Below are positions 7,100 through 55,999 of a DNA stretch of 64,000 nt, piece after piece. The notes under the pieces were generated by a model, which saw only the letters and a list, made by a program, of their open reading frames with translations, searched no databases and had not been told where the DNA came from. A program made the position numbers and the translations under genes. Position 1 is the stretch's first letter. Every line of letters begins with the position of its first letter. The stretch comes from Halichondria panicea (Eukaryota; Porifera; Demospongiae; Suberitida; Halichondriidae): contig NW_026986601.1 of assembly GCF_963675165.1 (NCBI RefSeq), positions 62,001-126,000 of the forward strand. The letters are read 5' to 3'.

Positions 7100-10000
7100 A
7101 GTCAATGTTCATCTCCCTTCCAAGTCTTCAGGAGTAGGGATGAAAGACTTTTTAGTAGAGCCGGTCGGGGGGTCCTTGTGGATCGGCGTAGGGGCGGGTA
7201 GACATGGAGTGGGGTGGGCAGGCAGTGGGTGGTGGGTCAACAGGGTGGGAGTTTCATCAGAGGGGGGAGGAGAGCCATGTCATCTAAGATTGATCTCTGC
7301 TCCCTTGGCGGAGATACGGGGGTGTATTTCCGTAGGAATTTTCTGTTCCTTAGGGTTGGTCTGCCGGATCCATCAATGCGGACGAGGTACTGGTGGTACT
7401 GACAAACTTCAATAACAATGCCAGTGCGATCCTATTTGTTGGGGTGATGACCAGTTTGGTTTTGTAGCCTTACTCAATCCCCTACACGTAGAGGTGTGAG
7501 CGATGTTCACTCCACTTCTCATGTTGAATGATGTGGCGGTGTCTTAGTGCCTTTTCTCTTAAGTTAAAGGAGTCTCTGTGTGGGCGATATTAGATCTCTG
7601 ATGGGTACACACATAGCTGGGGAGAGTTTGGTACTTGGGTCAGGTTTGTTTCTGTACTGAAGGATAGCTTTCTGGAAAGCATCAATATTGAGTGATCCAC
7701 TGTGTCCAACGTTGCCAGTAATGAGTCTCAACTTCTGCTCTGCAATTGCTATGGGGGAATGCCACAGAGCTGAGGCAATGTTAGACTCCCATGTTTGCAT
7801 AAATTGCCTAGTGGTGTGAGCTATAAATTCTGGGCCACCATGCATTGGATGATAACTCATCGGGTATACCGTAAGTTGCAAATGTTTGTCGCAAGACGTC
7901 AATCAATCCTAGGGCTCCATCTTTAGCTCTTTTGACTATGGGCCAGTTGGAATATCTATCCACAATGACAAGATAGTTGCAGTCTTGGTAGTGACAGTAA
8001 TCTGCACAGATACATTAGAAAGGGTATTCCGCGAGGGTTGGTGGTGTGGGGGGAAGCACCGACTGTGATGGGGCCATTCTGTTGCAGGGTGAGCAATTGG
8101 TGCGAGTGCATGGCTTGGATGTCCTGTGTGATGCCAGGCCAAAAGATTGATGCTTCGGCTTTCGAAATCATATTTGCTGTGCCTTGGTGGGAAGCGTAGA
8201 GAGCAGATAGGCATGCAGGTCTCAAGGAGGGTGGGATAACGATCCTGTTATTGTATATCACAACGCCGTCGCTGCTGTAGAGGTGGTTTCTGTGTTGGTG
8301 TATTCTTTGATGGATTGTGGTAGGTCGCTTTTGAGTGCAGGAATACCGTCTTCGATGGTGTACATCAAGAGGAGCATGTTGTCATCAGACGATGTAGCCA
8401 TTTGAACTTGCTCCCAATTCACAGTATGTGTGGAGGAGTGGAGTGTGAAGAGGAGGGTCTCTTGCAGTCGGTGTTCCGTCAGATATGAGTGTAGTTGGTC
8501 ATCGGTGTTGATGCCAGCGATTAGTTGGGTAGGGATATGGAGAGGAGGTGTATGGGCGATACCACTGCTATCTTCGATGCTGTGGATATCATCTTGGAGG
8601 CCCATTTTTGGTGGATGTGGATCACCTGTGGGGTATCTCGAGAGGGTATCAGGGGCTCTGTGCTTGATGCCGGGAATGTGTATCATTTTGAAATGGTATC
8701 GGAGGGTTTTTTCTTTGAGGTTGCGCAGTCTAGTGTTGGATATGTTATCCATGGATCGAGATCTTCAGGAGAAGTTTATGGTCCACTGCGATAGTTAGGT
8801 TTTTGCACCCAAGGATAAAGTGTCTCGCTTTGTCTAGGGCATCTGTCACTGCTAGTGCTTTGCCTTCAACTGGGGCATACCGGGATTCGGCAGCGTCGGT
8901 GAATCTGCTCCCAACTAGGGTGATCTTCCACCCTTGTTTACAGCAAAACAGGTCAGTAGATGGGCAGGAGCAGTGTTTTTGAAACAGCCAGTAACCTATG
9001 CCATGTTTCGACCAATCGGTAGCCAAACATGTAGGTTTCGTTTTGTCGAAGATTTTAACTCCATTGTGGAATTATGGTCAATTGACTTGTCAAAGGCTTG
9101 TTGCAGATCGTCGTCCCAGTGAAACTTATTGCTAGGCTTGAGCAGTTCTCAGAAGGGCAGCATTGTGTCATTCATACTAAAAGCGTATGATACCTGGTTG
9201 ATCAAACCGAACCAAGCTGTGAGGTTCTGTGGAGTGGGGAAGTCGGAGATAGCTACTTCTTGCATGATCGCACTGTATCTTTCGTGATTTCAAAGCCAGC
9301 GAATTCAACCTCGTCTTGGGCAAACCTAAATTTCTCTGGGATGAGGGTGATGCCATTTCTGCCACAAAGGTCTAGCCAGTTGCACGCTTGAAAGAAGCTC
9401 TCTTCAATAGTATCAGACCACAGGAGGGCGTCATCCACACACTTGGTGTGATTGGGTATAGAGGAGGCGATTTCGTCATATCTCCTGGTGTAGCCATCTC
9501 CCGAGGAGATGTAGCCTTGTGGGGCTGTGCGGTATCTGTAGCGACCCTAAGGTGTGATAAAGGTTGTATAGTGTCGATCTTCAGGGTGGAGGGGTACACT
9601 GTGATATCCATTCCATGCATCGAATACAGATTTTTTCTTCCCCTGGGGGATGGATCTTGCTTGGTGGTAAGGTGATTGAGTATGGTGAGTTTCTCTGGTT
9701 GCATGGATATTGAGGGGTTCGTCTTGGCTTGCCATTTTTCTTAGCGCAGATTACCATGCGGTGGCACCATGTGACTGGTTCTCCCATGGGTACCGGTTCG
9801 AGGACGCCTATATAGTCTCACATCTCGATCTAAATCAGCTTTGACCTCGTCTTGCCAATGAAGGGGCACAGGGATAGGTGAGTGATGAGCCGTAGGGGTT
9901 GCCTGGGTGTCGATTAGTAGTCGCATTGGTGGACCGTCTATCATGGGCAGGGTTTGGTGTTCACAGACGTTGAATGTGCTAAATCTGTAATAGTCCAGGA

Positions 10001-10590
10001 GGTATTGCTGGAGCGACTCTCTGTTGGCCTCTGTGGCTGAGAATGGCACGGAGGTAGGGCGTGGTGGTGGCTTGGTCCTTCTGGGGCATCGACATTCTTC
10101 TTGGTGTGAGGTGGTGGCAGCACTGATGGAATCGCGTTCCCGAATCTCACATTCTTCTTGGTGTGATGCACTGATGGGATCGCCTTTGCTGGGAACATGT
10201 GTGGGATTATTCCCAGATCCGCGCATCCCTCTCTGCTCAGGAACAATTTGTCGGTACAATTAGTAACGTAAACCATTTGCCTGGTTGATTTCTCTTCTCC
10301 CTTGCTGTTTTTTCCAGAGAACCGCAGTATTATGGCACCTCTTTGTATGTTGTGGTTGTCCGCTGCGTGCATCTTGAGGTCAACAGGGATTAGGTCTTTG
10401 GTAGAAGTTTCTTAACCACTTGGAGGCCTGCCAAGCAACTCTGACAGCCTGTGTCGGCCATTGCACTAACAATGATCGCTTGGGTGGTATGCTGAGTTTG
10501 TATCCGAGTTGTATATATATAGTCCTCTGACTCAATACTTATTTGCAGTCTGACGTATATGGTTGAGGTTTGGAACGTTTCCTGAGCCAT
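7100..10590 (-). pseudogene. pol: Ty3/Gypsy-type retrotransposon pol, degenerate
   Basis: On the minus strand the order is aspartic protease (ADTGCQSC near 10450), reverse transcriptase (start around 9950; CVDDALLW catalytic box at about 9426-9440), RNase H (ESRYAPVEGKALAV; DHKLLLK; about 8750-8900), a spacer with HIPGIKHRAPDTLSRYP (about 8640-8690), integrase N-terminal zinc-binding segment (SHQGTANMISKAEASIFWPG near 8170), integrase core remnants (7560-7900) and a chromo-type tail with RPTLRNRKFLRKYTP (near 7340). The order with integrase last is Ty3/Gypsy. The reading frame changes at least six times and the integrase second metal pair is lost, so the copy is dead. I found neither gag nor a convincing pair of LTRs. 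Confidence 0.85.
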
Positions 10591-12215: not shown

Positions 12216-12340
12216 CTAGCAATGCATTTCTATATCAGCTTTGATCCCCAGTAGTACTATCCATGTCTCGTTCTGAGGAGGATCTGAGGGCTGCTCTACC
12301 TCACTACTTAAGTTGTTAGTGGATATTGCCATATAATATC
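12216..12340 (-). CDS. Gene B exon 10: C-terminal tail
   Basis: The acceptor is TTTGAGATACAG. The exon begins with two bases that complete the codon left by the Death-domain exon, then stays open for 40 codons (YYMAISTNNLSSEVEQPSD ..) to TAG at 12218-12216. The tail is polar and acidic with no known domain. I see no AATAAA within 300 bases downstream, so a longer or alternative 3' end is possible. Confidence 0.5.
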
Positions 12341-12477
12341 CTGTATCTCAAACAGTTTAATACCCCCCCCCCCCTCCCCTGTTGTCCCAAGTGATTCGCT
12401 ATAGAAACGGGTGTGTTTACACTACGCTGTTCCAACACTGGCAAAATTAAAACTTGCACAAACACTAAAATAGTTAC

Positions 12478-12882
12478 CTGTGATACTATCAGCCAAATTG
12501 GTGAGATGCACTGTTGGCTTTTTGAGAGCGTCTGACAGGAGACTCCATGTTACATGTTGTGTACCCAGGAGCTTAGCCAACATTTCACGCAAGCACGACA
12601 TACTGTCTTGATGATACTGGATATTGATGTTGGTGAGAACAAGATGAGTTAGACCTAGAGCCAATCCCAGATTGAACCAGTGAGGGCTTGCATTTTCAAG
12701 TTTCTCATAAACATGTTGTAGATCGTTAATTGTCAAAGCCTGTACAAAAGTACCAACCAACAGGGTTTTATTTGGTGGGGATTGCCCCCTCGGAAGTATA
12801 CCTTCTAGAGAAAAATCAATGGGAATATGATTAAGGAGTTCTGTTGAGCAATACTTAACACGGCCGGTATAGTAGTGAATTC
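12478..12882 (-). CDS. Gene B exon 9: Death domain
   Basis: Acceptor GCATGCCCCCCAG, donor CACAG|GTAACT, phase 1 at both ends. After a 45-residue lead the exon encodes a Death-fold module: LTINDLQHVYEKLENASPHW, then FNLGLALGLTHLVLTNI, CLREMLAKLL, VTWSLLSDALKKPTV and LTNLADSI. The spacing of the six helices, the W at the end of helix 2 and the TW..L..AL..P.V..LA pattern fit the Death-domain superfamily. Such domains pair with other Death domains to assemble signalling platforms. The partner is unknown. It is the most C-terminal domain, the usual position in receptors and ROCO proteins that carry one. Confidence 0.8.
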
Positions 12883-12948
12883 CTGGGGGGCATGCCACAA
12901 ACCCTTTAGATACATGTCATCACACCCCCTAATATCATACACGTACAC

Positions 12949-13110
12949 CATTTTCTCCCCTCGCCAAAATGTCAATATGACAGGTACGTATATAATTTAG
13001 AGTACTGCCTACCTTGTGCATGCGAACGTGAGGAAATTTCTCAGGGATTTCTTGATCGAGTTGTTGGTCCCTTTTCTTACACACATCTACTGTAACAGAG
13101 GGAAATTCAC
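12949..13110 (-). CDS. Gene B exon 8: linker
   Basis: The acceptor is strong (TTTTCTTTCCTGCAG). The exon begins with two bases completing exon 7's split codon and reads EFPSVTVDVCKKRDQQLD and onward to FPHVRMHK. A donor AAG|GTAGGC at 13013 looks best but leaves phase 0, which does not fit exon 9. Reading on to AATG|GTGTAC (end 12949) restores phase and gives a 66-nt intron. The end is therefore uncertain. See the finding on compensating frameshifts. Confidence 0.5.
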
Positions 13111-14007
13111 CTGCAGGAAAGAAAACATAGTAAATGCATTAAATTTTAATCAAGCCTGGGAAAAATATACTAACTTTCAAACTAGAAATAACCTGTTGAC
13201 TATTGCAAGAGACAATTTGTCTGAGGGAAAAGTAGTGAGCTAACATTTTTCCATCATCCCTAATTGAAGAACGATACTCACTCGTTGAGCAGGTGTTCGT
13301 ATACAGTATGGAATGACAGATCAGAGAACACACTTAATCATATAATTATCCAGCTGCACTAACAAATAGTCAGCATGGTGCGTATAATTATATGTGTGTC
13401 TAACTGTGGTGTCGATCAGAAGTATATTTCAATGATATATACGGATGTCTCGATTCCAAGCCCTTAGTACGTATTATAAGGTCAATCCCTGGGGCCTGTA
13501 ATCTAACAAAAACTACCGCAACACCAATAGGAAGGAACGTAATAATTATTATGACATGCACCAAAGAACACAAATTGTTCGAGTATCCTTTTTAGTCAAA
13601 ATAATCAGATTGTAGGTTATAATTGTTGGATGCTCCTCTGATGATGATGATCCTATTCACCATAATTATAGCAATGCAATTAGGGCTGAATAATACATGA
13701 TGCATGACAAATTGCCAGCTAAAAAAAATTTTGACCCATGCATGCAGTGAATTCCAGTCTTATCGTGCTGAACATGCAAAAGTATTTAATCATTAGTGTT
13801 TTGGGAACTTTCACATAGTAAATTGCCCCCGGACACATAATTATTACTCCAAAGCAGGGTGTCCCCTGGTCACCGGACACATTACTCCGGAGTAGCTTGT
13901 CCCCCCAGGTGCAACCCTGTATATAGCTTACACTATTATGCGTCTTGATAATTATTATGCATGCAGGTCAACATGCACGTATACCCTATACTCATGTATG
14001 CACCCAC

Positions 14008-14044
14008 CTGGCTCCATAGAAGAAAGACGATCATGAGCAACATC
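14008..14044 (-). CDS. Gene B exon 7: 37-nt micro-exon
   Basis: Acceptor ATAATTATGTGCAG, donor CCAG|GTGGGT. It starts in phase 0 as required after the Roc-COR exon and leaves one base, as required by exon 8. It encodes DVAHDRLSSMEP. Supported only by splice sites and phase. Confidence 0.5.
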
Positions 14045-14451
14045 CTGCACATAATTATATTAAGTAAAGTAATATTTTATATAGTGTTTTCACAAAAACA
14101 CGACAAATTGTGTAAGCAGCCGAGAGTTAGACTTCGAAGAGTGCTCTAGTTACGGTCACGGGTACCAGTATAGTTACTATATAATAATTATTATAGTTAT
14201 TATAGGAGGACTTAATCACATAATTTTATAAGTAGAAATCTTATAGTAACTGATAGAGAAGATTGGGACACAAGATATTTATTATGTATATCAGGAGCAA
14301 ATAAGTGCAAGCTGCTAACATTAATTTATTGTACTCAGCACATTACAAACAAGGAAATGTGGTTAAACGATAGTGAGTCCACAATACTATCATATAGGTG
14401 ATATAGTACAACCATTAATTTTGATGTCTGACCACAATAAAGAAAACTAAC

Positions 14452-16697
14452 CTTTGGGAACCATGTACTCATTCGATGGGTTAGTTGCACAGCAATTTTG
14501 CAGCTCTTACACTTTAAGTCCCTGACGTTTTCCAGATTAAACAATGCAAATGATTCGTTTCCCATTCTTTTCTCACAATGAGGACATTTAAAAGCAAAAT
14601 TGTAGCTCTGTGTCAGCTGAAATAGAGAATTCTGTCTCATTCTATATATTACACCATTGATAGATTTTTGTAGTATGTCTTTAATTAGTAGGCAACATTT
14701 GGTGATCTCTTCGTCTCGAACAGCACCTGGGGCTCGTGATACTCGAAACTCACAGTACTTGGCTCGGGAAATCAGCGCAATGTTATACCGTCCTCGAAAT
14801 CGAAATGTTATTTTATTTTTGTACATCAGTTCATTTTGCTCTTTACCAAGTAAATCCAAATCCTTCTTGTTAGTATTTAGCAAATTAGCAACTAGGGCAG
14901 GAAAAAACCCCAATGGCACAAAACCAGTTTTAAAGCAGATGCAAAGCGGCGTTGGATCTTTTTCATAATCTGCACCATCTGGAGGCTTGTTCAACACCTC
15001 ACTATTGGCTGTTTGAAGTACTGCTGGAAGAAAATACCCATCAATTGAATCCACAACTATTGGAACAGCTATGTTTAGATACTCTAACAAGGGTAGTAGG
15101 TCTTTAATAGGTAAACGATTTCCTTGAGTAACGTTGGCCTCAATGTTGTGATCTTTATGACAAAAGAAGCCCTTTTGTTTGAAGCGATGGACCTCAGACG
15201 GTCCAATTTTTCTTTTCGGTGGATCATAAATATTAAAAATGAGCTCACTAATAGAAGTGAAAACAGCTTGAGGATCACAGATGACGATATCTTTGAGCTT
15301 TTCATCTGCCTGAAAGTACATCACTTGCCCAATGTACTTGTGAAGGAATCTAAGAGCTACTTTAACAGTATCTTCGTTCATTTTAAAAAATTTGCCGATT
15401 TCAACACAGTCTGTAAATTCTATAACTTTCCTCTTCTTTTTCTGAGCAAGAATCTTCAAGCAAATGCTAAACATCAACCACCGTGCAGGGATTTTATATT
15501 TACGGAATCTGCTTTCAATTAGGTCTGTAATAATTTGTCTATATTTATCGACTTCAGGTTTGCCCCCAGATTTATTATTAATTGGAAAAAGAACTTCAAG
15601 ATCATTCTTATGATACTCAATTAGATCGTCCTTATAGAAAGAAGTGGTTTCCAGCTTAGCATGAAGTTGCTTATTAGTTTCCTTTACCTTCTCTTCAGCT
15701 TTCTCTTCACCTTTTTTATCACAAGATGTGAGGTCATCTGCATAGGTTCCCATAATCAATACAAGTGAGTTGATTTTCTTACTATCGGCTGGGGCTATAT
15801 ACTTTTCTACCTCCTCATCCAAGTGACCAAAGCATGCAATGCATGAGAGAGCAGTGAAAATAACTTCTTCTGGTGTATATTTGAAATTCTCACAGATAGA
15901 AGCTTTTTTATCGTTTTGAAATTTGCATTTTGTATCCTGTGGAGTTTGCAATTCCCAAAGAAGTTTCATGAACACAAGATACATTGCGGGCCCAATTGTC
16001 AAGGATGGTAACAATTCCAAGAAAGCAGGCTGGCCACCCACATCAACTATGTTGATTATAGCATGTAGTGATTCTACATTATCATTGGGAGAATTGCTCA
16101 ATTTAGTACGTAGCTCCTCAAATTCTTTGTAAGTTTGATCAATCTCGCTTTGAGGTAAATTCTGAAGTTCTGGACAAGAGCTAGCAGTAGGTGGTTGCTC
16201 AAAGACTGAATAAGTAGTGCTCTGAGAACTTTCATTCGTAGAAACAGCAGCTATATCTGCAGTATCAGATGTATGATTAGGAGGCACAGAATCACTGCTA
16301 TGATCAGACGTAGACAGAGTCTTTTCTGGTTTTTCAGCAGTAGCCATTTTGCTTGCTTTTCTAGATTTAGTCTGAGAGGTTAGAAGGGACACGAGTGCGC
16401 TCAATTCCTTACCTATGTCTGATTCACCAAATATTTCCCAACTTCGTTCAGTTGACAGGGCTACTGATTCGTGATTATAGACTAGGAACGCCTCTTTATA
16501 TTCTGAAAGGCCAGTGCTTCTAGGCGGTTGCTTGTCAGGATCTTCGCTGATATCCCATTTCATTATCCCAAGCAATCTACGAACAAATGTTGACTTTCCT
16601 ATTTGCCCTGGTCCAATAGCCAGCATTTTGAGATAAAACAATAGGATAATGTCACCGTTTTTTATCGCTTCTTCATAGATTTTATCATCCTCTATCC
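14452..16697 (-). CDS. Gene B exon 6: Roc-COR GTPase
   Basis: A single 2,246-nt exon, acceptor TTTTTTGTGTGCAG and donor AAG|GTTAGT. Walker A GPGQIGKS is at residues 579-586 of the modelled protein (about 16591-16614). Switch II DVGGQ is at about 769 (16030-16044), and a G4-type GTYAD replaces the usual THxD/NKxD at about 867 (15736-15750). A COR domain follows, with WLMFSICLKILAQKKK, FFKMNEDTVKVALRFLHK and VICDPQAVFTSISELIF. Near the C end two CxxC pairs (CPHC, CKSC; 1255-1285) suggest a small zinc ribbon. An unusual Ser/Thr-rich stretch of about 80 residues (starting SQTKSRKASKMA) splits the Roc domain between P-loop and switch II. Roc domains bind GTP/GDP and COR dimerises them. No kinase domain follows, unlike LRRK proteins. 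The first in-frame initiator-like codon is intronic. Confidence 0.88.
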
Positions 16698-16774
16698 CTG
16701 CACACAAAAAATAATTTTCTGGGTGTGTTACTGGTCAAGTGAGTTGATTGGATATGGCTTATGAATGAACTTGT

Positions 16775-16880
16775 GTGAACAACAATTATACCTCGAGGCG
16801 TAGCCGCACGAGGAATACGGTAAAGCTGACTGTGTGTGTGTGCATGTGTGTGTATTCAGTTGTAACCGCTCAACGGTTGC
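16775..16880. repeat. Dispersed repeat fragment
   Basis: CCTCGAGGCGTAGCCGCACG followed by a TG-rich tract and ..CGCTCAACGGTTGCA. It matches, inverted, stretches near 36210-36345 and 22780-22830, so it belongs to the family that also contains the units at 25.6 and 31.2 kb. Confidence 0.5.
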
Positions 16881-17269
16881 ATGCGCCGAAAACTAACAGC
16901 CTCTATAGACCGCCAATCCTTCTCTCTTCAATTTATGATTATACGACATGCAAATTAACAGTTTGTTTAATGACCCGGCTATTCCAGCACAAAATTAAAG
17001 GGAAAGTTAGGTTAGCCCCAACACTAAAAAGACCCAAACAAGATAATGTGAGTATTGGTTATTTAAGAAATTTGATGGCAAAAAAACAAGTTGCAGGTGT
17101 CATACAGAATTTTGAAGTAGGGGGGAAATAACGGAGAGATGCGAAGCATGCCCCCCTATAGAAATTGTTTGCCTCTAAGGTGAATTTTGGTGGGTTTCGG
17201 GGTTGCCTTTGCTCATTTTGTAGGGTCATATTCGGGTCCAGATAATAATTGTCACTAAATGAAAAAAGT

Positions 17270-17590
17270 GCTCTAGGAGAACTTTAATGCCCGTCGTCAC
17301 TAAATCTCTCCTATAATAGAGAGGAGCTTAATGACTGAGGGACTAAATCTCTCCTATAATAATATGGGAGATTCTTAATATCTGCAGGGCACTACTACTC
17401 TCCTATATTACTTTAGGAAGGATGCAATGCCCAAACCTTTCCTATTATAGTAGGTTTAACTATAGGAATGATTTGGTGTGCCCAGCACTAAATCTCTCAC
17501 ATAATAATATGCACAATGCTAATAATGTCTGAGGGTACTAAGTCTCTCCTATAACAATATGAGATATGCTTAATGCTTGAGGGCACTAAT
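17270..17590. repeat. Degenerate tandem repeat
   Basis: About five copies of a ~62-bp unit built around CACTAAATCTCTCCTATAAT, with variants of 'gagggcact' at the joins. It lies in the intron between exons 5 and 6 of gene B. Confidence 0.65.
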
Positions 17591-17602
17591 TTTTTCCTGC
17601 AG

Positions 17603-17701
17603 AACAACAAAAACATGGGAGATATAGCCCACCAAAAGGTGCAAAAGGCTCTGTTGTGTCTTGGACAGAGGCAATCGGAGAGTGTCTTCGATGGCATTTA
17701 A
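17603..17701 (+). CDS. Possible short plus-strand terminal exon
   Basis: After an acceptor-like TTTTTTCCTGCAG a 32-codon frame runs to TAA and reads MGDIAHQKVQKALLCLGQRQ and on. It lies antisense within an intron of gene B, and no partner exon was found. Probably chance or a relic. Confidence 0.2.
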   Translation, partial: NNKNMGDIAHQKVQKALLCLGQRQSESVFDGI

Positions 17702-18266
17702 TACATACCGTAGTATAAAGTAGGTTGTTGCTACTCTTGGTTTTTACATTCATGTCAACAGCCGAGGGTTAGCACTTCAGTGCTCTAGTTTCTAAGTACC
17801 TGGCATGGACATTAGGAACTATGTGTCTAGTAAAGAAGTTACTGCATAGATGCCAGTGACAGTGACAGTGCTATATAGTGACAATAAAAGTGAAATGCCT
17901 GATCAATGAAAGCACCGCGGGTGCTAATGCCCCGATAGGTGGAGGCTTTATAGCAATGAAGCTACAATACTAGTACTAGCAGACTATTATTAAATACACA
18001 CCTGTGTACAGTTACAATTCTTACATTACTCTTTAAGATTTTTTCACTTTGTACACTTTTTCCGATCTATACATGCGTGTACGTAAACTATCTGTGCTCA
18101 ATTTAGAATTATAGCAGCATGTGGCGTTGCTACTTTTACCACCTTAACCAAAATTTTGCTGCAGATCGAGTAAGGGTTCTACTGAAGTTTTACTGCACCG
18201 CTGCAACTTTTGCTGCTTTGTTTTACCTATACGGAGCGCTCATCTTTTTATAATTTTACTGCTTAC

Positions 18267-18458
18267 GTGCTGTCAACCTTTGTTGCAGGTCAGTTGATAA
18301 ATATGATGTTTGCAAAGTCTGGCCAAAGATTATTTGGAGCTCTTCATATGTCACATTACTTGTTCCACTATCAAGCTCAATATCCAGTTTATCAATTTGC
18401 ATTGATGTCAATATTGTATGAAGAAGTTTGGACTCTTCGGCTTCAATTTTGGTTCCAT
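18267..18458 (-). CDS. Gene B exon 5: helical linker
   Basis: Acceptor CACTTATGCAG, donor GCAC|GTAAGC, 192 nt, phase 1 at both ends. It joins the Ig exon in frame through a 65-bp intron and then the Roc-COR exon. It reads GTKIEAEESKLLHTILTSM, then DKLDIELDSGTSNVTYEE and so on, a charged, probably helical stretch of 64 residues. No named domain is recognised. Confidence 0.6.
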
Positions 18459-18523
18459 CTGCATAAGTGAAGATAACATCAATACACTATACTTGACACC
18501 CGTACAATTAATACCTAATTTAC

Positions 18524-18793
18524 CAACTGTAAGTCTTGCCGAAGTTGAAGATATGTGCACACCCGAATGATGTTTGTTAGTGACAATACACTTGTAACTT
18601 CCACAGTGTTTAGACAAGGGCTTCAAAACAACCAGTTTATTTGACGTTGCTCCTCTGTAGTCAGGATTATCATCTGGTATACTCTGATCATTTAAGCACC
18701 AGTTGTATGAGAACTGTCCTGAAGACGTCACAATGGAGAATGTAGCTTCCTCACCGACCTTAGTGTGCACATCCTTGAGATCTTGTACAAGTG
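18524..18793 (-). CDS. Gene B exon 4: Ig-like domain
   Basis: One whole Ig-like domain on a symmetric phase 1-1 exon of 270 nt, the arrangement typical of shuffled Ig domains. Acceptor CACATGCCTGCAG, donor TTG|GTAAAT. It has GEEATFSIVTSSGQFSYNW, then SNKLVVLKPL, then the F-strand CGSYKCIVTN. Oddly the B-strand position usually holding the first disulphide cysteine is Ile (FSIV), while a Cys follows the core Trp (NWC). The usual bridge may be missing or rewired. No signal peptide or membrane segment is visible in any mapped exon, so an intracellular Ig fold is possible, as in titin-like and some signalling proteins. Confidence 0.8.
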
Positions 18794-18893
18794 CTGCAGG
18801 CATGTGGGATACATGTAAAACATACGCAAAATGTACTTAAACGTATATAATTATACTGAAAAGAGGACCTGATGGCATCAAGGATTGTCTTAC

Positions 18894-18981
18894 ATTGTGA
18901 TTCAAGTGCTGTCAAAGGGGAGGGAGGGTATTCCAGTAGAGAAGTAGAAAAACATCCACGATCAATTTGTTGAGCAACAGT
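18894..18981 (-). CDS. Gene B exon 3: linker
   Basis: Acceptor TTATTGCATGTGCAG, donor CAAT|GTAAGA. It starts in phase 0 and leaves one base, which matches the Ig exon 100 bp downstream. It encodes TVAQQIDRGCFSTSLLEYPP and nine more residues. No domain recognised. Confidence 0.55.
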
Positions 18982-20395
18982 CTGCACATGCAATAATTAA
19001 AGAGTACAATTACAGCGTGGCAGAATTGGACATATACAATCTTGTACCACGATGTGCTCTGACACTAAGGAATATCCATTGAAACTCTCAGGATACTCCA
19101 GGGTACAAATCCCATGTACCCTAGGGTACATTGGCTGTGGTCAGCCTAAAGCCTACCCTCCACCTTAAAGGAGCTTCTCTTTTATAGAAGATCAATTCTT
19201 CAGTATCCTATCAGATTCACTAAAACTACCGGACCACATTGGAACTGGGTTGTGAATGTGGTTAAGTGCAAGCACACGCACACAAAATGTGCACAGTGCA
19301 TGCACGGCAGGGGTCAAAGAGTGTTTACTACTACTCAGTTATAAATGGGTTGGATAACAGCTTCTAATTGCAATACGTGTTCATAGTATACAAGCTACCT
19401 GTACCATGGATATCTGTGTGTGTATGTGTACTACCTCGTGCAGTTGTATGCTCTCGGTAGTACAAATCCAATACACCCTTGATATCCATGGTACAATTAA
19501 CTATTACATGTACATGTACTTTTCTTACCTGCATGAGGCGTTCTAAAGCGCATGCGCAGCCTGCATGGACCCGAGACTATTTTTAGTGGTCGAACAGTAA
19601 TAATTTATGAATGTTTTATAACACTGACAATACAGTAGACTCTCGTTAATTCGTTCACTTTTGGGACAGTGCAGCTTGGCCGGAATAGTATTTCAAAAAA
19701 TAGCTGTGGCTAAAAAACGATCTTACCTGACTAATTTTGCAGTTCTGTCTCGAGGATAATGAAGGATAATGAATCATTCTGCTCTCTAATTAAGTGTATA
19801 TCTGCCAAACCACACCCAAAACGTCATATCCGGCCGTAATAACGTACATTGAAAACTTAGTTTGGGGCAGCCAGTACTGGCCAGTATACGGAATAGAGAG
19901 AGCTGCATTTCAGGGTGATTTTTGTGCAGTAAACATCTAGCTAGCAATCCGTGCCAAACCAAATGGCCGGTATATCGAGGTGGTCGTACTTCAGAGAGCC
20001 GGAGTAGTGAGTATATAAGCAGTTACATAGACACATAATTTTTGAGAATAAAAACTTAAAGTGATACTGTCACTCCAATTTTTAGGACATCTGTTCCTTC
20101 AGATGTTCTACAGTGCATGTCTCTATATACATACTGCATGTATATAGTTCTTTGATCAGTCTTGAGATAGGCCTGACCATGCATCCTCTCCGCCCATCTA
20201 ATTATGCACGTAACGCTGAGTTTACACAACTTCCCACCGGCAGTTTCATGTTCACGGTGTTGTCACAAACACTTGACTGCAAGTTCACCTGACCCCATAC
20301 GAATTGGGGAGGGCATGGCCAGACTATTTGGGATTGCAAGTACAAGTTAGATAGTAAAAGCAGTTGCTACAAGGCATGCTTTTGTCAACTATAAC

Positions 20396-20610
20396 ATTTA
20401 GAGAGTCCGTTATAAGAGGTTCCACTGTATATGGATGTGCATGAACGAACCAAAAAACCAAATTAATGCTGGTGGCAACATACATACACTAGTGCTCCAT
20501 GTAGTTAATACCTCTTTCTCTTGATGACGAACTTATTCCTTGTATAGTAGAACCTCGCTAATCCAGATCCCTTTAGTCCGAAACCAGGCTTGCAAATCCA
20601 GACAATATGG
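20396..20610. repeat. pogo/Tigger-like terminal fragments
   Basis: GTCCGTTATAAGAGGTTCCA (about 20406-20425) and TAGTAGAACCTCGCTAATCC (about 20545) resemble the characteristic ends of pogo-group Tc1/mariner elements. The two fragments face each other's flank and do not delimit one intact element. Confidence 0.4.
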
Positions 20611-21142
20611 CAAAAGGAGGGGCTACTGCGCATGCACACTCTAACTAACTTTTTTTTTGCTGAATCAGCAATAATTTTACAACGGATATATACTGGCAAA
20701 AAAACAAAGAGAGCTCACAGGACTTGGAGAGAAAGTTGAGATAAAAGACTATTCTAGCTAGCAGCTTCCCTTCTGGCCAACATTCATATCATAATACATG
20801 ATTGTACATGTGTAATATTCCACTCAAAGCACTCATTCGATCCAACACTGATGCCTGTTAGATGCATTAAATATGAGTGCTAAACTGAACACTGACAACC
20901 TCCTGACCCTCAGTCTCACTGCAAAAGAGCAAAGAAGTTATACCAGAGAGCATCAGAAAACATGAAAAGAGACTGATAAACATTGCATTGCATGATCAGA
21001 AGTGTGTAAATTATTGTTTTTCTTGCTCTCTCACTGCTGAAAAGCGTTTCATTCCAATTAAGAATCACTTCCTAGTGTGCAATAACAAGTGTGCAATAAT
21101 ACTTCCGGGTGAGCGATATGGAAAATTGTACAGAGGAAAAAC

Positions 21143-21570
21143 TATGCCATATAGACTAGGATCTACAACTGTAGCAACACAGACCGTGCTCTATTATTCT
21201 GTGGTTGGCATTTTTGGAACGGTTTGGTAGTTAGAGCACGGTTGGTGGTGAAAATGATTGATTTTTAAGTCATAGAACTTTATAATAAATAGCTACAACT
21301 GCTCCATGGTTGCAATGCGAGTACAGCTAAGTGATTCTATAAAGCTTCTAGCAATGGGGCTATCTGGCAAACAAAGGCTTTGTTCTCGAGTAAAGGTTAG
21401 TTTTGCTTACCAGTACATTGAAGGCCAATACTGCGCAGTCTCTCTAGAATCAAATCTGTTCGTAGAAGGTTGCTATTCTACTTAGTAGTTAGCTCTATAC
21501 TAGAGCGATAGCTATTGGTATAGCTGCAAGAAGCTGCAAACTACAAACCAGTTAATGCACAGTTTTACGC
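21143..21570. repeat. 430-bp dispersed repeat, copy 1
   Basis: Direct repeat of 26163-26590, with shared stretches such as TGCTCTATTATTCTGTGGTT, AGAAGGTTGCTATTCTACTT and CTACAACTGCTCCATGGTTG. The copies differ by several small indels. Confidence 0.7.
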
Positions 21571-22865
21571 TCGTGCTCTATGGATATTATTGGCCTCATG
21601 GAAGTTCAAGAAGCTCATGTAGCTCGAGGCGAAGCTGAGTGCTACATGATGCTTTGAGATAGCACTCGCAATCGTGCATTAACTAGTACATATCTGTACA
21701 CTTGGTGATGAGTCGCTCCTGTGCAATTTGAATGTAAAACACTAATGTCAGCACTTATTAAAAAGCATTATAAAGTCCAATGGTGGTGTAGAGTTCAATC
21801 TAAGACTGAGTACATTTTTGTCACTTTCTGTAGTGCTTGTTGTCGACCCGATCCCTTTGCCTCTGCTCTTCTTTATCCATGTTTCACTGATTAGCTCCAG
21901 TTCGCCGTTTTCGAAATTCCCTGGCCTGTTCCCTTCACCTTGCCAGCCTCTGTTCCGCCGTTTCATTAATAGCTCCTGCTTGCTGTCGAACTTCTCTTAT
22001 AGACTTGTCAGTTGATGGTTTCTTTGGTCCCTGTTAAGCTTCAGTTTCATTTAACGGTTCTATCTATGGTTTCATCCATACTTAACTTGTTACTTGCCCG
22101 CTTTAATTGCTTGTTCAAATGTAAGTGACCGTCCTGACCGTCCAAAATGCAGCAATCATCGCGCTAAAAAGCTTGAAATGTCAGACAACCAGTAAGTCTC
22201 TGTACTACTTGCTACTATTTTGGGACGAGCCTTAGGGCTTGCCCTAATAACCCGCAGCTGGCTGCGGCGGCCCCGGGTTAACAAACCAACAGACTACATG
22301 TACTATAACTCGGGGCCACCCACAGGCCTTGGGTTAATAACTTATATTCTTCGCCTGTATATATTCATTCAAGATATTTTTCTGCATAGAGTCAGGGTTT
22401 ACGGTATCTGTACATTTTATGGGCAATAACTAGACGGGGGTCACCGCCCTTGACCGTTGTACAGAAGGAGGACGGGACCCAAGCTTATCTACAGTTTTAT
22501 TCTACCAATGAAATTCCACCGGCTCCATCCAATCAGATTGCAGTATTTGATCACACCCACTTAACTTTACCACGTGTGAATTTTGCACACGCTAAATTGA
22601 CCGAGAGGCATGGCCAACACCAGTGATATTCATCGCTATTGGCTAACACCCACTTAAAAATAATGAGATTCATAATACTATTGCATAACAGGCCAGAACA
22701 AAACTGTATATAGGCTTGGTTCCTGAAGGAGGACGGCGACGCCCGTCTAGGCAATACTAGTGACGTGGGTAGAAGCCTATAGAAACTCTTAGTTTTCGTC
22801 GCATTGCAATCGTTGAGCAGTTACAGCTGGAATACGCACATGCACGTACAGACAACAGACACAGA

Positions 22866-23395
22866 GGAGGTCGGACACCACTTGACCTTTCTGATAATTA
22901 CGACCTTTTAATAAATCTTTTTACTACCCATGCTCTGCTAGATCTGCCCAACTAGTACAGTAGTGGCCGTGGCAACCACTCGAGGCAACACTAGATCTAG
23001 ACTATGGAGACGACACACAGTAGCCTAGCCCAGCCTCTGATGTTATAGTTCTGTCAGTTCCTCTAACCACCTGTTAACCTGGTCCTCACTATATCATCAC
23101 TAGTCTACAGTCAGATTATATAGCACACAACAGGGAAATAGAGAAACATGCAAACAGACAGGAAATGAACTCTATATAGCTTGGGAGTACCGAGGAACAG
23201 AGACTCTAAAGCTAGAAGATCGAGAGGCTAGGCTACTATGGTATAATCTCCAAAGTCTAGATCTAGTGTTGCCTCGGCCATTAGTTGGGCGGGCGGATCT
23301 AGCAGAGCGTGGGTAATTGGGTATAGTAGAAAATTTAATTAAAAATGTTCTCCAATTGTCATAATTAGCAGAAAGGTCAAGTGGTGTCCGACTCC
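22866..23395. mobile_element. Inverted-repeat element, about 530 bp
   Basis: GTCGGACACCACTTGACCTT near 22870 is inverted at 23374-23394, and a second inner pair (CTCTGCTAGATCTGCCC.., GAGGCAACACTAGATCTAG) is also inverted. Arms are about 150 bp with gaps. No coding capacity; target duplication unclear. Confidence 0.6.
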
Positions 23396-24105
23396 TTACC
23401 GTATCCTTCCTGCGGCTACACCTCGAGTCATAAAATTAACTGGCTGATACAGGATCAGGACAGTTGACGTTGGAAGTGTAGTGTACGTACAGGCTCTCCT
23501 TTTTCTGTTCTTTATCACAATCGTTCAATAAGATAAAATACTATACTAATCGTTCAATGAGATAAAATAATACGGTATTAATTGGAGGAATAAAGAAAGA
23601 AATAGACGTAGAGTTAGGAAAAAGGAGATCCTGTATCAGGAAGTCGCGTAAGGGTAGAAGTGGTAGAAGCGTGAAAATGAGCGTGGGTGGGTATGCAGTG
23701 CTAGAGATGTTGGACTGCCCACGTAGAGATCTATGACTAATAAAACTTTGCCTGCAGCAAGCTAGCAGGACATGGACTTGGAACTGGAAGTTTGCAAGCA
23801 CTAGCTAGCTAGCTAGACCACCTTAGGCTTAGCTAGATCTACTAGATTGTGTGATCTATCAGACTATCACCTTTCTTGTGTCTTTCTAAATGCTAGATCA
23901 GAATAGCTTAGTCATCATTATCATCTAGCAGGTATAGCTACTCAGAGCTGGCCACGCTGGTTCCCTAATCTGGCTTGCAGCACAGCTTAGTACAGTCTTA
24001 TTAACTCTGAATGCGTGGGAGAATACGTCACGATTGTGGGCTATTATATATTATATATATTGCCCACGTTCATAAAAATCCTTGTGGATCATGCGATTTC
24101 TCAAA

Positions 24106-24238
24106 CCAGGCCTTACTTTTTCTTAACTGTATACCCATTTTTTTCTTTGCTGCCTCACTTTGTCTATTCTTTTTTTGCTACCTTCTATTTATGATTTATG
24201 GATGAATAATGACAACAGCAAGAAAAAGTAAGGCCTGG
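24106..24238. repeat. 133-bp MITE
   Basis: CCAGGCCTTACTTTTTCTT and its exact inverse AAGAAAAAGTAAGGCCTGG bound the unit. Confidence 0.6.
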
Positions 24239-24771
24239 GAACGAGGCTACCATATATTGGTCCTACAATATGCCATACACTGTCTTATAAATAGAAAAAT
24301 TACGGACAACCCTAGACACAGCTCCATCTCTTCCTTTCTTCTAGACAATATAAGCCAGTATCTGCAGCGTATAAGATTGGCATGGACCAACGAGCGGCTT
24401 GACACAAATTGGTGCTGAAAAACAGACCCACCCTACTACGGCTGCTGCAAAAACAGCTCCACCCACCACGTCTGCTCGACGGCCTACCTCACAACCAAGC
24501 TAAAGAAGCTCGCCTCTACCATTTGTATCTATACCTGCTGCCAAGCCCACAGCAGAAGAGCCGCTTCTAGATGCTTATATAGTGCAAAGCAGAATTGAAG
24601 GACCTCTAATAAGCCGGCCATGCATGTGCATCATGCATGAGCACTAGACACAGAATCTTCGAACTTTGAACAATTTTAAAACGTGCATGGTTGCCAAGAA
24701 GAAATTCCAGCAGTGCATGCTGAACATTAACAGTGTCCTGCATGTTATTATGTTATTCTAATCAGGGGCGT

Positions 24772-25115
24772 TTCGAGATTGAAGCAAGGGGGTGCTCAAG
24801 AGCACAGAAAAAATGGGGCCGCGAACTATGCGCGCGTGATTTTATGCCCCTGCAATTATTGCGGTGCGTCTTTTACATGCATAGCGTGATAATAAGAGTA
24901 TCAAGACATAATTATTAGCTAGCTAGAGTCGGTCGTCTTGTAGGATCTCCATGCACTATTCTCCTGGGGCACATCCTAGCAAACTGGTCAATCACTGCAA
25001 TGGGGGTGTCCATTCAGTCTAGTGTTAGCCATTAAGATTAGTTTCATGGTTGTCTGGGAGGACAGAGGGGTGCTCAAGCCCCCGAATCCCCCCACTGCTA
25101 ATGACAGAGGGGCGT
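24772..25115. mobile_element. hAT-like MITE fragment
   Basis: Starts CAGGGGCGTTTCGAGATTG.. GGGGGTGCTCAAG and ends with an inverted AGCCCCCGAATCCCCCCACTG. Similar starts occur at about 28957 (CAGGGGCGTTTCTAG) and 41773 (CAGGGGCGTAGTTGG). Confidence 0.45.
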
Positions 25116-25356
25116 TTTGTGGGTTATATTATAACTTTGTGGTTAGTGGATTATGCTGCATATTGCACTTAGCAACAACGTAGCAACGGGGTATACATAT
25201 CTATACATAGGCCAGAATCAGGTAGTACGATTATTTGCCTCGCTTCCCGCTCGGCAAATAATTATGTCACCTGGGTTATGCTCAGTTTAATAACATACAG
25301 GAACGAGGTCACTTTAGTTTACTGTCAAGTTGATGTTGCTTATACTATATACTTAC

Positions 25357-25524
25357 TGTTATAGTAGCAAATTGTGTCACCGCTGGTGTATATTGATCAC
25401 TCATTCTTATCTTCTTACATACAGGTTCCATTACAGGGGACAATACGCCTGAGGTGGAAAATACAGGAGTATCTTCCAGACTTGAATTTGATTCACTTTT
25501 AGAGTGCTGCTGTACTCCAGGTAT
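25357..25524 (-). CDS. Gene B exon 2: Ser/Pro-rich linker
   Basis: Acceptor CATACGACCACAG, donor ATAACA|GTAAGTAT (near-consensus). It is 168 nt, phase 0 at both ends, in frame with the ankyrin-like exon and with exon 3. It encodes 56 residues, beginning IPGVQQHSKSESNSSLEDTP, with no domain recognised. The Ser/Thr content suggests a flexible linker. Confidence 0.6.
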
Positions 25525-25638
25525 CTGTGGTCGTATGTAAAAACCAACAATGGTAATAATTATAGACTGACTCAGAGCTTAAAACATTTCACGTACAAGT
25601 GCATGTTGTAGTTTTTCTGTACAAAGATCAAAGGAAAA

Positions 25639-26165
25639 ACTATGCTAATGAAAGCACCACAGGTGTTGATGCCTCGGTGGAGATGCCAAAGCTACATAAC
25701 ATAAAGCTACTAATAGCTTTTATACACATGATAATTTTGCTGCATGCAAAAACTCAGAGAGTGGGTAATAATCGACCATGATTGTTGTCAAAAACCAAAA
25801 GTTCAAGTCAAAAATTAATGGCTGCATTAGCAGAGCTTGCAGCTCTCTTCTCACTCTTGCAGCTACCAATAGCTAGTGTTCTAGTGCAGAGCTAACTACT
25901 AAGTAGAGTAGCAACACTCGGTAACAAGTTTGGCTACGTGCTCTTCTGAAAAGGCTGCAATGGCATTCCAAGTAAGCAAAACTAGGCATAACTCGAGAAC
26001 GAAGTATTATTTTGCAAATCCACGAATTAAAATCCAAGTAAACATGACTAGAAGCCTATAGAAACTCTTGATTCATCCTTGAGCAGCTGTAGCAGTCTAC
26101 ACACACAGACACACAAACACACTACCGTAAACCTCGCTTGTGCATGCGCACCGAGGCATAACAAA
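25639..26165. repeat. Dispersed ~530-bp repeat, copy 1
   Basis: Runs from GAAAGCACCACAGGTGTTGATGCCTCGGTGG to a CACA-rich tract and TGCGCATGCACAAG (inverse strand). An inverted copy lies at 31150-31705. It overlaps the intron between exons 1 and 2 of gene B. Confidence 0.7.
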
Positions 26166-26590
26166 TGCCATAGACTTGGATCAACAACTGTAGTAACCAC
26201 AGACCAGTGCTCTATTATTCTGTGGTTGGCATTTTTGGAACAGTTTGGTAGTGAGAGCACGGCTGGTGGTCAAAATAATTGATTTTTAAGCCATAGAATT
26301 TTATAATAGCTACAACTGCTCCATGGTTGCAATGAGAGTACAAGCTAAGTGATTCTATAAGCTTCTAGCAATGCTATCTTGCTAACAAGGCTTTATTCTC
26401 GAGTATAAAGGCTAGTTTTACTTACCAGTATGTTGAAGGCCATTGCAGTCTCTCCTGAATCAGGAATAGCAAAATCTTTTCGTAGAAGGTTGCTATTCTA
26501 CTTAGTAGTTAGCTCTATACTAGAGCCGATATAGCTATTGGTAGCTGCAAGAAGTTAAACTACAAAACAGTTAATGCACTGTTTTACATA
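26163..26590. repeat. 430-bp dispersed repeat, copy 2
   Basis: Partner of 21143-21570. It directly abuts the donor side of the ankyrin-like exon. Confidence 0.7.
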
Positions 26591-26620
26591 CATTAACTAG
26601 TACATAATTATGATCATTAC

Positions 26621-27553
26621 CTCAGAGCTTGCAGTCGGAGGAAGAGAAATGGAAGTACTTTGATGATCTCTCTGAAATGGTTTTATCCCGTCTATATCTT
26701 CGACATTATCTTTGTGACCATAACGAAACAACATTTCGGAGCATGAATCGTGATTTGTGCGCCTGGCTTCATGAAGCATTGTTCTCTTCTTAGAATCAGT
26801 GAATACAGAATTTATATCAATTTTATTCTCTCTCAATAGCTCAAGCACACTTTGGAAGCCAGCCAGCTTATATCGGTGGTCGCGCTGCATGCAATTCATC
26901 AGATAATGGAAAGGCGTGCAGTTACGTTCATCAAAAACTGTTATAGTTGGAAGAATATCCCGTGCAGCCCTTTTGCACGCGTTAATTACAACATTCAAAA
27001 ATTCCGACCAATACGACGTATCGCCTCCATCAAAACCAGTGTGAAGAATGGTAGATGCACTTCCGCTTTGTTCAAATCCAGTTAAACTTGGCAAGATGTT
27101 ATGTGTAACACATAGATTATAAAGCAGTTCAATGGCGCTATTGTGCCGTATGTCCACTGCTAATTTGATAGGGGTTTTTCCTTGATGATTTTTTGTACAT
27201 AGGATAGTCGTTTGCAGCTCAGAATCTCCCTCAACAAATAAGGCAATTACCTCTTGCTTTGCCTTACTATTAATGGCACTGTGAACTGGGAGATCACCAT
27301 CAGCGTCTTCTTCAGTTAACTGGTATTTAGGCATTTCCGAAACAATTTTCTTTATATCTTCAAACTGAGTGAAAGATGGACAACTTCTAGCAAGGCCATG
27401 AGTGGCAGTGCCGTCAAATAGTGTGTCACGCTTATGAAGGAGTTCTCCATATACTTTCTGAGCAGAAAGATTGCCTTTACACATTTTATGTGCATTATCT
27501 TCCAGCCATTTTTTCCAAACTATGGGCTCCTGAATGGGGTTCCATAAAACCAT
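26621..27553 (-). CDS. Gene B exon 1: ankyrin-like repeats
   Basis: An open exon of 311 codons ends in phase 0 at donor GAG|GTAATG. The start is ATG at 27553; an in-frame TGA lies four codons upstream with no AG between, so this can be the true initiator. An alternative is an internal acceptor (ACCCCATTCAG, about 27522) that would remove the first eleven codons. Ankyrin-like motifs: DGDLPVHSAINSKAKQEV, GKTPIKLAVDIRHNSAIELL, NCTPFHYLMNCM and RTMLHEARRTNHDSCSEMLF followed by YGHKDN. The family resemblance to the exon at 355-1287 is clear. No signal peptide is present. Confidence 0.75.
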
Positions 27554-44185: not shown

Positions 44186-45753
44186 TTAGCTAGCACATGT
44201 GTGTCCGATAACAGAGTGTCCTTTGCATATTCTTATGCGACAGTGGGGACATGCCATTGCAGTGTGTTGCTGCTCTCTGCTAGGGATCTTCTCCCGAACA
44301 CACACTTGACAGCGCCCACGAGACACTCCGACACTATTTGCACTCACACGTGCGCCCTGTGATGGGGGGAAAACGATATTTAGACTGGCCAGACCTGAGG
44401 CACTGCTACGAGTACGTGGCACACCCAATAGACTATGAATTAGTTCCAATCGAAACCCTTTCAAAGGCATGGCCTTTGAACCCACCCTGACACAGTTGTG
44501 CCTGTATAGAATGTATGCATTATTCACACTAACGTCAAGGAATTGAAAGAAAATCCTGAACCAATACCGCCGACACTTTCTATCGTACCCATAGGTTTTC
44601 CTCATACGCCCTGTATTGTCAACTCCTCCCATGTACATGTTATATGCAGGGAGACAGGGGGGGACACTCTGAGAGCGTAGGGTACCGTCTTTGTGCATTC
44701 GCATTACAGTGTGGGGCATATGGTCAGGGAACACATTTGTTGCAAAGGACACAACTCTACGGTCGTTAAACATAGAGTAAGAAATATCACCAACAGTCAT
44801 GGACGTATAGTCACCTTTGTCGAGTACCACATCCTTAAGACTTGCTGGGAAACCAGCAGCATTCTTCAAAATTGTGCCGACAGTAAACACATTTTGCTTA
44901 GCCAACTCTTCTATCAATGGACCGGACGTGTAAAAGTTGTCCATGTACACAACATGCTGATGACCATAAAAAGGAGTGAGTAAACGATGGACTACATTTT
45001 TCACAAGCCCTTTCACAGCTATCTTTTTCCCAGAGGAATCGGTGAGCTTACCACTGTATACATCAAACACACAGAGATACCCACAGCATGAACATGAGCA
45101 GCACCATACCTTGAACCCCAGTTTAACAGGCTTCTTGGGCATATGAATTTTCCCGCTTTTACGACCCTTGTACTTTATCATCATCTCATCAACGGAAAGC
45201 TCCTGACTGGGATTATACCTCATGAAGTAGTTGGCTTTAAGAGTCTCTAAAACAGTTTTTAGCTTGCTAGTTACCTTACGTGCATCAGTGATGGACGTAT
45301 TGTCCTCACAGTGCAGATACCGCCATAAACTTTGGAACCTTTTGAGCGACATTACATTGCTCACACATTGTACACCTAAAAGGGGATCCTTGGACCAGTA
45401 GTCCGTAATTTCAGGGAGCCTATGAATGCCCATCTCTAGTACAATCCCCAAAAACACCCACAATTCGGCACTGTTTGTAGCTGACCAACCCTTAGCACCA
45501 CACTGCCTAGCGTACAGGTTGGTCTGTTCGGCTATGTACTCACACAAACTATCGGGCCAAAGTAACTTAACAAAATCTAGGCATGGAGTTACAGACGGAT
45601 CAAGTTGATCGACAGGACCGACCACACCGCCAAAGACGGGGTATCTTCCTGTGGACTTAGCTTTTTGGAGTCCATTGTCCCTCGCCAGCTTCCTCCGTTT
45701 GGGAGTCGGAGCCATGCCATCGACCATTTCGTCATCATCCTCCACTGCAGCAT
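44186..45753 (-). CDS. piggyBac-type transposase, copy 1, exon 2
   Basis: Catalytic exon of a 568-residue two-exon DDD transposase. The acceptor TTTCCGTGCAG precedes an exon whose first two bases complete the codon left by exon 1 (47954-48092). It starts AAVEDDDEMVDG with a PKRRK nuclear signal. The three catalytic aspartates sit in SVDEMMIKYKGR (D235), VYMDNFYTS (D318) and GGVDNTGRMRKTYG (D425). A C-terminal Cys/His module (CQVC, CPHC, CKGH, HTC) fits the PHD/RING-like DNA-binding tail of piggyBac. The domain is complete with no stop, so the enzyme could be active. The protein upstream of the acceptor in the same open frame (MVRPHNDIHS..) is repeat-derived and not part of the gene. TTAA-specific cut-and-paste transposition is the family activity. 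Confidence 0.9.
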
Positions 45754-45826
45754 CTGCACGGAAACAAAGCATGAATATCATTAGAGTACCACAAGAGTGC
45801 TCGCCAGTGCAGGTGGGGGACAGGCT

Positions 45827-47786: not shown

Positions 47787-47953
47787 TACAGTACAGTACT
47801 GCAGTCAAGGCGACGCCAAAAAGAGGCTCACACAATGTAGGAGGAGCCACAAAAGGCATGCACATGACGCCTCCGCCAAAAAGAGGCCACATATCGTTAG
47901 GGCATCACAATGCTGCCTCCCCAACCACTATTTAATGGTGCAATGACACAAAC

Positions 47954-48092
47954 CTGAATCACTCTCCAGATCTGTCTCAAAATCGTCATCACTGGGCTCG
48001 TCATGGTCATAACAGACTTCCTGGTCCTCCTCAAGCTCTCTGACAGTGTGCTCAAGCTCGCTGACAGTGTCAAGGAGTCCAATCAGCTCCAT
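47954..48092 (-). CDS. piggyBac-type transposase, copy 1, exon 1
   Basis: ATG at 48092 opens MELIGLLDTVSELEHTVREL, then a strongly acidic run (EEDQEVCYDHDEPSDDDFET) ending at donor TCAG|GTTTGT. It is 46 codons plus one base and joins exon 2 in frame (GAT, Asp47). Acidic N termini are usual in piggyBac transposases. The intron that follows is 2,200 bp. Confidence 0.8.
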
Positions 48093-49848: not shown

Positions 49849-49921
49849 CTGCACGGAAACAAAGCATGAATATCATTAGAGTACCACAAGAGTGCTCGCC
49901 AGTGCAGGTGGGGGACAGGCT

Positions 49922-55973: not shown

Positions 55974-55999
55974 TTGGATTCAAAAGTTTTGAAAAATAA

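Follow-up and report, generated by a model that had tools for sequence, protein, structure and literature searches.

Introduction

Death domains are assembly modules. In MALT1, a Death domain is combined with intracellular immunoglobulin (Ig) domains and a paracaspase, and Roc-COR is absent; DAPK1 possesses ankyrin repeats. As described in the available part of one report, DAPK1 represents a group of ROCO proteins with a Death domain, and ROCO proteins dimerize through COR (PMC6337361). Brown algae harbor candidate immune receptors composed of leucine-rich repeats (LRR), ROC and COR, whose LRR exons shuffle, according to the accessible portion of the source (PMC11378527). For the sponge Amphimedon, the accessible text lists 357 TRADD-N proteins and Death-superfamily domains joined to ankyrin and other partners, in lineage-specific expansions (PMC8195603). 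Here, we analyze a stretch of 64,000 nucleotides from Halichondria panicea (contig NW_026986601.1, positions 62,001 to 126,000; G000:C22:62001-126000), the whole of which is hereafter termed the window. On its minus strand, a preliminary description had drawn one gene of ten exons, joining ankyrin-like repeats, a single Ig domain, a Roc-COR GTPase, a possible zinc ribbon and a Death domain in one product.

We find that the central part of this gene, with Ig directly ahead of Roc-COR, has many relatives in the same genome. With moderate confidence, we read 18793-12216 on the minus strand as the body of a ROCO-type GTPase gene of the order Ig-linker-Roc-COR-Death-type, one of about 20 Ig-Roc loci, working by the mechanism proposed in the Discussion.

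Results

Ig-Linker-Roc-COR Core

The genome searched comprises 131 Mb on 39 contigs. Among the 150 matches listed for the Ig exon, the 24 strongest, with the window's own included, have E values of 2e-6 or better. Roc-COR relatives were listed for 60 stretches, and since 60 of 350 candidates were scored, this number represents a lower bound. Of these 24, 21 are followed on the same strand by a Roc-COR exon at a distance of no more than 8 kb; the window and a tandem copy on the same contig are among them. In the hand-typed subset of matches, 15 of these 21 loci have a Death-type exon further on along the same strand, although in one of the 15 (C5:1700902) that exon sits past a second Roc gene. 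Counted from the Roc side, a Death-type exon was typed within 8 kb behind Roc on the same strand in 39 of the 60 rows.

Splice phases can offer a further level of detail. At all 12 loci compared (the window, the tandem copy and ten others), the Ig and Roc acceptor phases are constant and the Ig donor phase is 1, and the linker phases are constant in the 11 loci read in frame. As AG and GT are common, the evidence resides in the constancy of phase and position. The phase 1-1 Ig exon ahead of Roc, an order that the preliminary description did not recognize from elsewhere, is thus confirmed as a recurrent feature. Judged from these sequences, the succession of Ig, a 64-residue linker and Roc-COR is a real, repeated architecture.

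The domain models agree with this picture to a varying extent. Pfam was scanned with an earlier version of the spliced protein (1443 residues, with a different last exon) and with single exons. I-set just reaches its cut-off of 23.7 bits with the Ig exon alone and scores 17.6 bits in the whole protein; by the exon-alone match, the exon belongs to the Ig superfamily. Ig models match all 13 relative rows (E up to 0.1), and a MALT1 Ig chain appears among the weaker matches of the Ig profile against PDB (E 0.0033). COR-A passes its cut-off of 35.3 bits with the exon alone and stays below it in the whole protein (33.5 bits). Among relatives, COR-A matches 12 of 12 rows and Roc 8 of 12 (E up to 0.1), and COR lies behind Roc, the order by which ROCO proteins are recognized. 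At least 60 COR-A stretches are present in the genome, 25 of them above the Pfam cut-off. The suggested Pfam check of the proposed domains therefore holds for Ank_2, I-set and COR-A, the latter two with the exon alone only, and leaves Roc and Death below their cut-offs.

Conserved residues point in the same direction. Residues of G1 (GPGQIGKS) and G3 (DVGGQ) are invariant or nearly so in the 12 rows. In the region of the proposed zinc ribbon, Cys 704 and Cys 729 are invariant in 12 of 12 rows, and a family match of any weight was not obtained. Comparison of the window gene with the tandem copy shows purifying selection on the Roc-COR exon, with nonsynonymous divergence (dN) of 0.071 and synonymous divergence (dS) of 0.211 (dN/dS about 0.34, p 6e-13).

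Several loci display additional features. In two C10 loci, a weaker Ig match lies between COR and the Death-type exon, and directly behind the Roc-COR of a C8 gene with an ankyrin relative upstream there is a weak Ig match (L018:4730-5071, minus strand; Ig_2 E 0.0058, below cut-off). At L005 (C5:1686000-1695900), two Ig-Roc genes stand close together and their phases, judged by eye, appear compatible, so that a double Ig-Roc-COR product would be possible. A frame with a SEFIR domain (L003:1-666; 26.8 bits, cut-off 23) is found 7 kb upstream of another Ig-Roc gene.

Comparison with the Tandem Copy

The tandem copy (C22:24775-37354) displays ankyrin, tail exon, Ig, linker and Roc in the same order and with open frames. 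Over 24.3-15.9 kb of the window, 22 of 28 blocks of 300 bases are 97-100% identical to it and the other six 93.7-96.7%, with few aligned bases in two of the 28; over 29.7-27.5 kb, at least 97.3% identity is reached in 12 of the 15 blocks, each of 150 bases. Insertions and deletions are left out of all these values; the region at 26.6-24.3 kb occupies about 2.3 kb in the window vs about 0.25 kb in the tandem copy. The Ig exon is identical in both. Two regions deviate from this near identity. The 3' half of the ankyrin exon is 84-93% identical between the copies. At the end of COR (15.9-14.4 kb), identity drops from 93 to 75%.

Across the Roc-COR exon, dS in blocks of 100 codons is 0.03-0.05 in the first three and 0.75 and 0.91 in the last two. 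This rise of dS where identity falls favors exchange over selection. In its last COR segment, the tandem copy is nearer to the relatives at L005, L006 and L009 (71-76%) than to the window gene (66%). In the tree, its Death-type exon groups with those of the Ig-Roc genes L004, L005 and L009 and also with L015 and L020 (100/100), and the exon of the window gene groups with copies on C10, C2 and C13 (100/100). At the sequence level, the window gene demonstrably differs from its tandem copy by another COR end and a Death-type exon of another subfamily. Module exchange is likely, and the simplest reading would be that the window copy is the changed one, having received a new COR-Death end.

Gene Model

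The ten-exon model at 27553-12216 could be rebuilt as proposed: it has 1453 codons with one terminal stop and no internal stops, AG/GT at the exon ends and matching phases throughout. In this version, 18894 is the end of exon 3, and the last exon occupies 12283-12216. The exons are collected in Table 1.

Table 1. Exons of the rebuilt model, with window positions
Feature	Position	Strand	Evidence and remarks
Exon 1, ankyrin repeats, 311 residues	27553-26621	minus	Ank_2 32.8 bits, exon alone; linkage to Ig-Roc not demonstrated
Exon 2, Ser-rich tail of the ankyrin unit, phase 0-0	25524-25357	minus	Counterparts on C2 and, by eye, in the tandem copy
Exon 3, bridging, 88 nt, phase 0-1, doubtful	18981-18894	minus	Splice signals at chance level
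Exon 4, Ig (I-set-like), phase 1-1	18793-18524	minus	I-set 23.7 bits
Exon 5, 64-residue linker, phase 1-1	18458-18267	minus	Also lies between Ig and Roc in the paralogues searched
Exon 6, Roc-COR, 748 residues, Cys-containing end	16697-14452	minus	COR-A 35.6 bits; P-loop GPGQIGKS, DVGGQ
Exon 7, 37 nt, weakly supported	14044-14008	minus	Likeness to a tandem-copy exon, by eye
Exon 8, 98 nt	13110-13013	minus	Similarity to a C13 ROCO gene
Exon 9, Death-type	12739-12478	minus	76-84% identity with five aligned relatives; Death 13.1 of 22.6 bits
Exon 10, terminal, with stop	12283-12216	minus	C2 exon match DPPQ[N/D]ETW

Of the nine junctions on which the single product depends, those of exons 1-2, of Ig, linker and Roc, and of exons 8-9 are backed by homologues, as is exon 10; for exons 2-3 and 3-4, a search for supporting homology found none. 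The first residues of exon 7 resemble, by eye only, the start of the tandem-copy exon behind Roc. Exon 8 reaches 57% over 47 aligned columns with a stretch ahead of the Death-type exon in a C13 ROCO gene, exons 8-9 align with C13 and C10 DNA, and window DNA at 13140-12435 shares 79% identity with the end of a C13 ROCO gene. In exon 10, DPPQNETW resembles DPPQDETW behind a Death-type exon on C2. On the Kyte-Doolittle scale, the best 19-residue mean is 1.77 and lies inside COR; by that scale alone, no strongly hydrophobic stretch was seen.

Death-Type Exon

Exon 9 may encode a divergent Death domain, an assignment that is weak and not proven and that represents the weakest of the domain calls. 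It is suggested by relatives of the exon. The Death-type exon of the tandem copy scores 23.6 bits, above the Pfam Death cut-off of 22.6. Among 16 Death-type exons aligned as a mixed set, Death is matched by 12 (E up to 0.1), the best being the tandem copy's (5.7e-5), and the window row is not matched at this threshold. A wider alignment of 11 rows, ten of them added relatives at 41-51% identity, contains five rows matching Death (best E 0.019). Its profile, searched against PDB at E up to 1, places the Death domains of PIDD (0.022, 0.029), FADD and CRADD in the lead, with 14 of the 18 matches being of this kind.

A number of observations weigh against the reading that 18793-12216 encodes an Ig-linker-Roc-COR-Death-type protein, and several of them concern this exon. 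Taken alone, the window exon reaches 13.1 of the required 22.6 bits, and Death is not listed for the whole protein. In its close subfamily, one of six rows, the window itself, matches Death (E 0.11), and five of the six weakly match the unrelated family NADH_dh_m_C1. Against PDB, the close-subfamily profile ranks designed proteins and NDUFC1 above the RIPK1 Death domain (E 0.91), another profile puts repeat-protein or designed chains above Fas, and Death domains rank first with the wider alignment only (best E 0.022). Single-sequence AlphaFold prediction of the exon gave a helical model with a predicted local distance difference test (pLDDT) score of 55, too poor for a structure search. With 16-25% identity between this exon and the other Death-type group, neither the alignment nor the deep branching of the tree is secure. 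For Roc, the window exon alone scores 13.4 of 27 bits, with no listing for the whole protein. In the genome, Roc is not listed for three of the 24 strongest Ig matches; among the 21 Ig-Roc loci, C5:5043029 carries stops in its Roc, and six are without a typed Death exon.

Death-type exons are abundant on C3, C6, C7, C10, C13 and C14, with 564 and 566 first-look candidates for two queries, 150 of each being scored. Those upstream of Ig at L006, L009 and L010 were considered as N-terminal domains; at least some are better explained as the ends of preceding tandem genes, because the C13 gene stops right behind such a pair. A Death segment seen by eye behind ankyrin repeats in a C15 frame was likewise discarded, as Pfam finds no Death there.

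Ankyrin Exons and the Start of the Gene

Whether the ankyrin exons belong to the same product depends on the 6.5-kb intron ahead of Ig. Ank_2 exceeds its cut-off also in the whole protein (27.8 bits vs 27.3). Ankyrin matches amount to 18 genome stretches including the window's own, and two of these, in the window and the tandem copy, are upstream of an Ig-Roc gene. Exon 2 has a homologue on C2, likewise located behind an ankyrin exon (match over 19 residues, E 4e-4), and a counterpart of 75 nt in the tandem copy, read by eye. Since the Ig acceptor is in phase 1 at all 12 loci, an upstream exon ending in phase 1 is expected; the phase-0 end of exon 2 makes exon 3 indispensable for a fusion of ankyrin and Ig. 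The intron offers five open candidates, exon 3 included, with splice signals at least equal to its own, and the opposite strand also offers five. Outside the window and the tandem copy, exon 3 found matches only at E 0.12 or worse.

A bridging exon at chance level is what one would expect if the region held two genes, an ankyrin gene, possibly truncated, that runs from 27553 to around 25357, and an independent Ig-Roc-COR-Death gene opening with a small first exon of its own. We consider the chances of this arrangement to be evenly balanced. The ankyrin relatives point to it: read by eye, the closest one beyond the tandem copy (C2, 78%) continues into an exon-2-like tail exon and then a stop-ending exon, and both C17 copies that were read come to a stop soon behind the ankyrin exon, in short tail exons. 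For the 16 other ankyrin stretches, the 28 of 150 Ig rows that were typed include no match up to 15 kb downstream. By eye, the ankyrin exon on C2 shows a splice acceptor at the place of the window's ATG, so that the window unit may be a 5'-truncated piece from which a first ankyrin module was lost. A candidate for the start of Ig-Roc genes is the short exon MRTKMDQQQQS, ending in phase 1, which the Ig exon can follow in two C10 loci; at L013, however, a Death-type exon pair directly before the short exon could join that exon instead. Two separate genes would also call for a phase-1 exon upstream of Ig in the window, yet the six small ATG exons ending in phase 1 within 2.5 kb are unconvincing, and the one with the best donor (ATG near 19553) was rejected for being out of phase in the tandem copy. 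Nor did the stretch of the window that was searched yield a relative of the terminal ankyrin exon of C2 (E up to 0.5).

The single ankyrin-Ig-Roc-COR-Death gene as first drawn is a tentative option, to which we give distinctly less credence. Every phase matches, and the tandem copy maintains the order from ankyrin to Roc with open frames, but such conservation is expected from shared descent alone, and the bridging exon stays at chance. Outside the window contig, one C8 ankyrin relative has a Roc-COR exon 5.4 kb downstream and a Death-type exon beyond, an arrangement that agrees with a single gene. The claim of ankyrin repeats in the same product hence retains the conserved order in its favor, and the link itself is not demonstrated; the first exon of the Ig-Roc gene is either to be sought in the ankyrin exons upstream or is a small unrecognized one. 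It is quite improbable that the locus, on its short contig, is not a working gene but a copy in decay or a product of misassembly. The contig measures only 143 kb, carries the near-identical tandem copy and includes five identical transposase frames in the window, which would suit such an origin. All exons are open, though, Roc-COR is under the constraint reported above, and the 3' ends of the two copies are too different for alleles.

Two further candidates around these exons were not retained. An ATG immediately before the Ig exon as the start is contradicted by ATT in the tandem copy, and positive selection on the ankyrin exon is not indicated (dN 0.0985, dS 0.1295; not different from neutral, p 0.28). 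The contig also holds distant relatives of the main ankyrin exon: one at 325-1287 of the window, on the minus strand (30% identical; Ank_2 43.7 bits), and another at C22:50767-51612.

Neighboring Elements

The transposase frames occupy 44186-62563 of the window on the minus strand. They are five copies of an identical 556-residue frame, the first three starting exactly 4095 bases apart; the one copy scanned matches the transposase family DDE_Tnp_1_7 (8.8e-69). Minus-strand frames at 7956-10411 resemble, by eye, pieces of a retroelement polyprotein.

Discussion

Returning to the Ig-linker-Roc-COR-Death-type reading, the most likely function to fit the parts would be that of a cytosolic sensor acting through clustering of Death domains. 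In such a protein, the Ig domain, together with the ankyrin repeats if present, would bind a ligand or partner. Nucleotide-dependent dimerization of COR would then draw the C-terminal Death domains together, and these could nucleate a Death-fold complex. A GTPase-gated Death scaffold is suggested because ROCO proteins dimerize through COR and Death domains are assembly modules. The function is wholly inferred from the parts, and we count this, too, against the reading. Relative to the tandem copy, the window gene would have kept its front and changed its output end.

A broader proposal is a modular receptor system built around the Ig-Roc-COR core, in which the ankyrin modules ahead of it and the Death modules following it could be swapped by recombination. 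Such changes would come about by gene conversion or ectopic recombination inside the ankyrin and COR exons or next to them, and the window gene would be an ankyrin-Ig-Roc-COR-Death hybrid. We regard this as rather unlikely.

If real, an Ig-Roc-COR-Death family with replacement of ends between near-identical duplicates would amount to a natural experiment on how ROCO GTPases are wired to a cell-death output, and its proteins would be candidates for a class of cytosolic immune receptors other than NLRs. We found no description of such a family in open-access titles and abstract openings, subscription papers lying outside this scope.

Compared with known systems, the locus most closely recalls several partial counterparts. 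With the DAPK1 group it shares Roc-COR; a C-terminal Death domain, a weak call here, and ankyrin repeats, whose link is unproven, would be further common features. It differs from that group in the Ig domain directly before Roc and in its many local copies; the DAPK1 group has a kinase domain ahead of Roc-COR, whereas no kinase model matched the spliced protein in Pfam, a scan that did not extend to DNA upstream of the gene model. The likeness to MALT1 consists of an Ig domain with a Death-type domain, the difference being the paracaspase of MALT1 and Roc-COR, present here only. As far as the available part of the Amphimedon report goes, the resemblance lies in hundreds of proteins in which ankyrin, among other partners, is combined with Death-superfamily domains within a single animal; coupling to Roc-COR is not mentioned in that part, and the window model has no TRADD-N-type match in Pfam. 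The brown-algal LRR-ROC-COR genes, in the portion of the source available, offer a parallel in an expanded ROCO family, module shuffling and a proposed immune role. Where their LRR exons shuffle, no LRR model matches the spliced protein of the window in Pfam, and it is the 3' half of the ankyrin exon and the COR-Death end that differ between copies.

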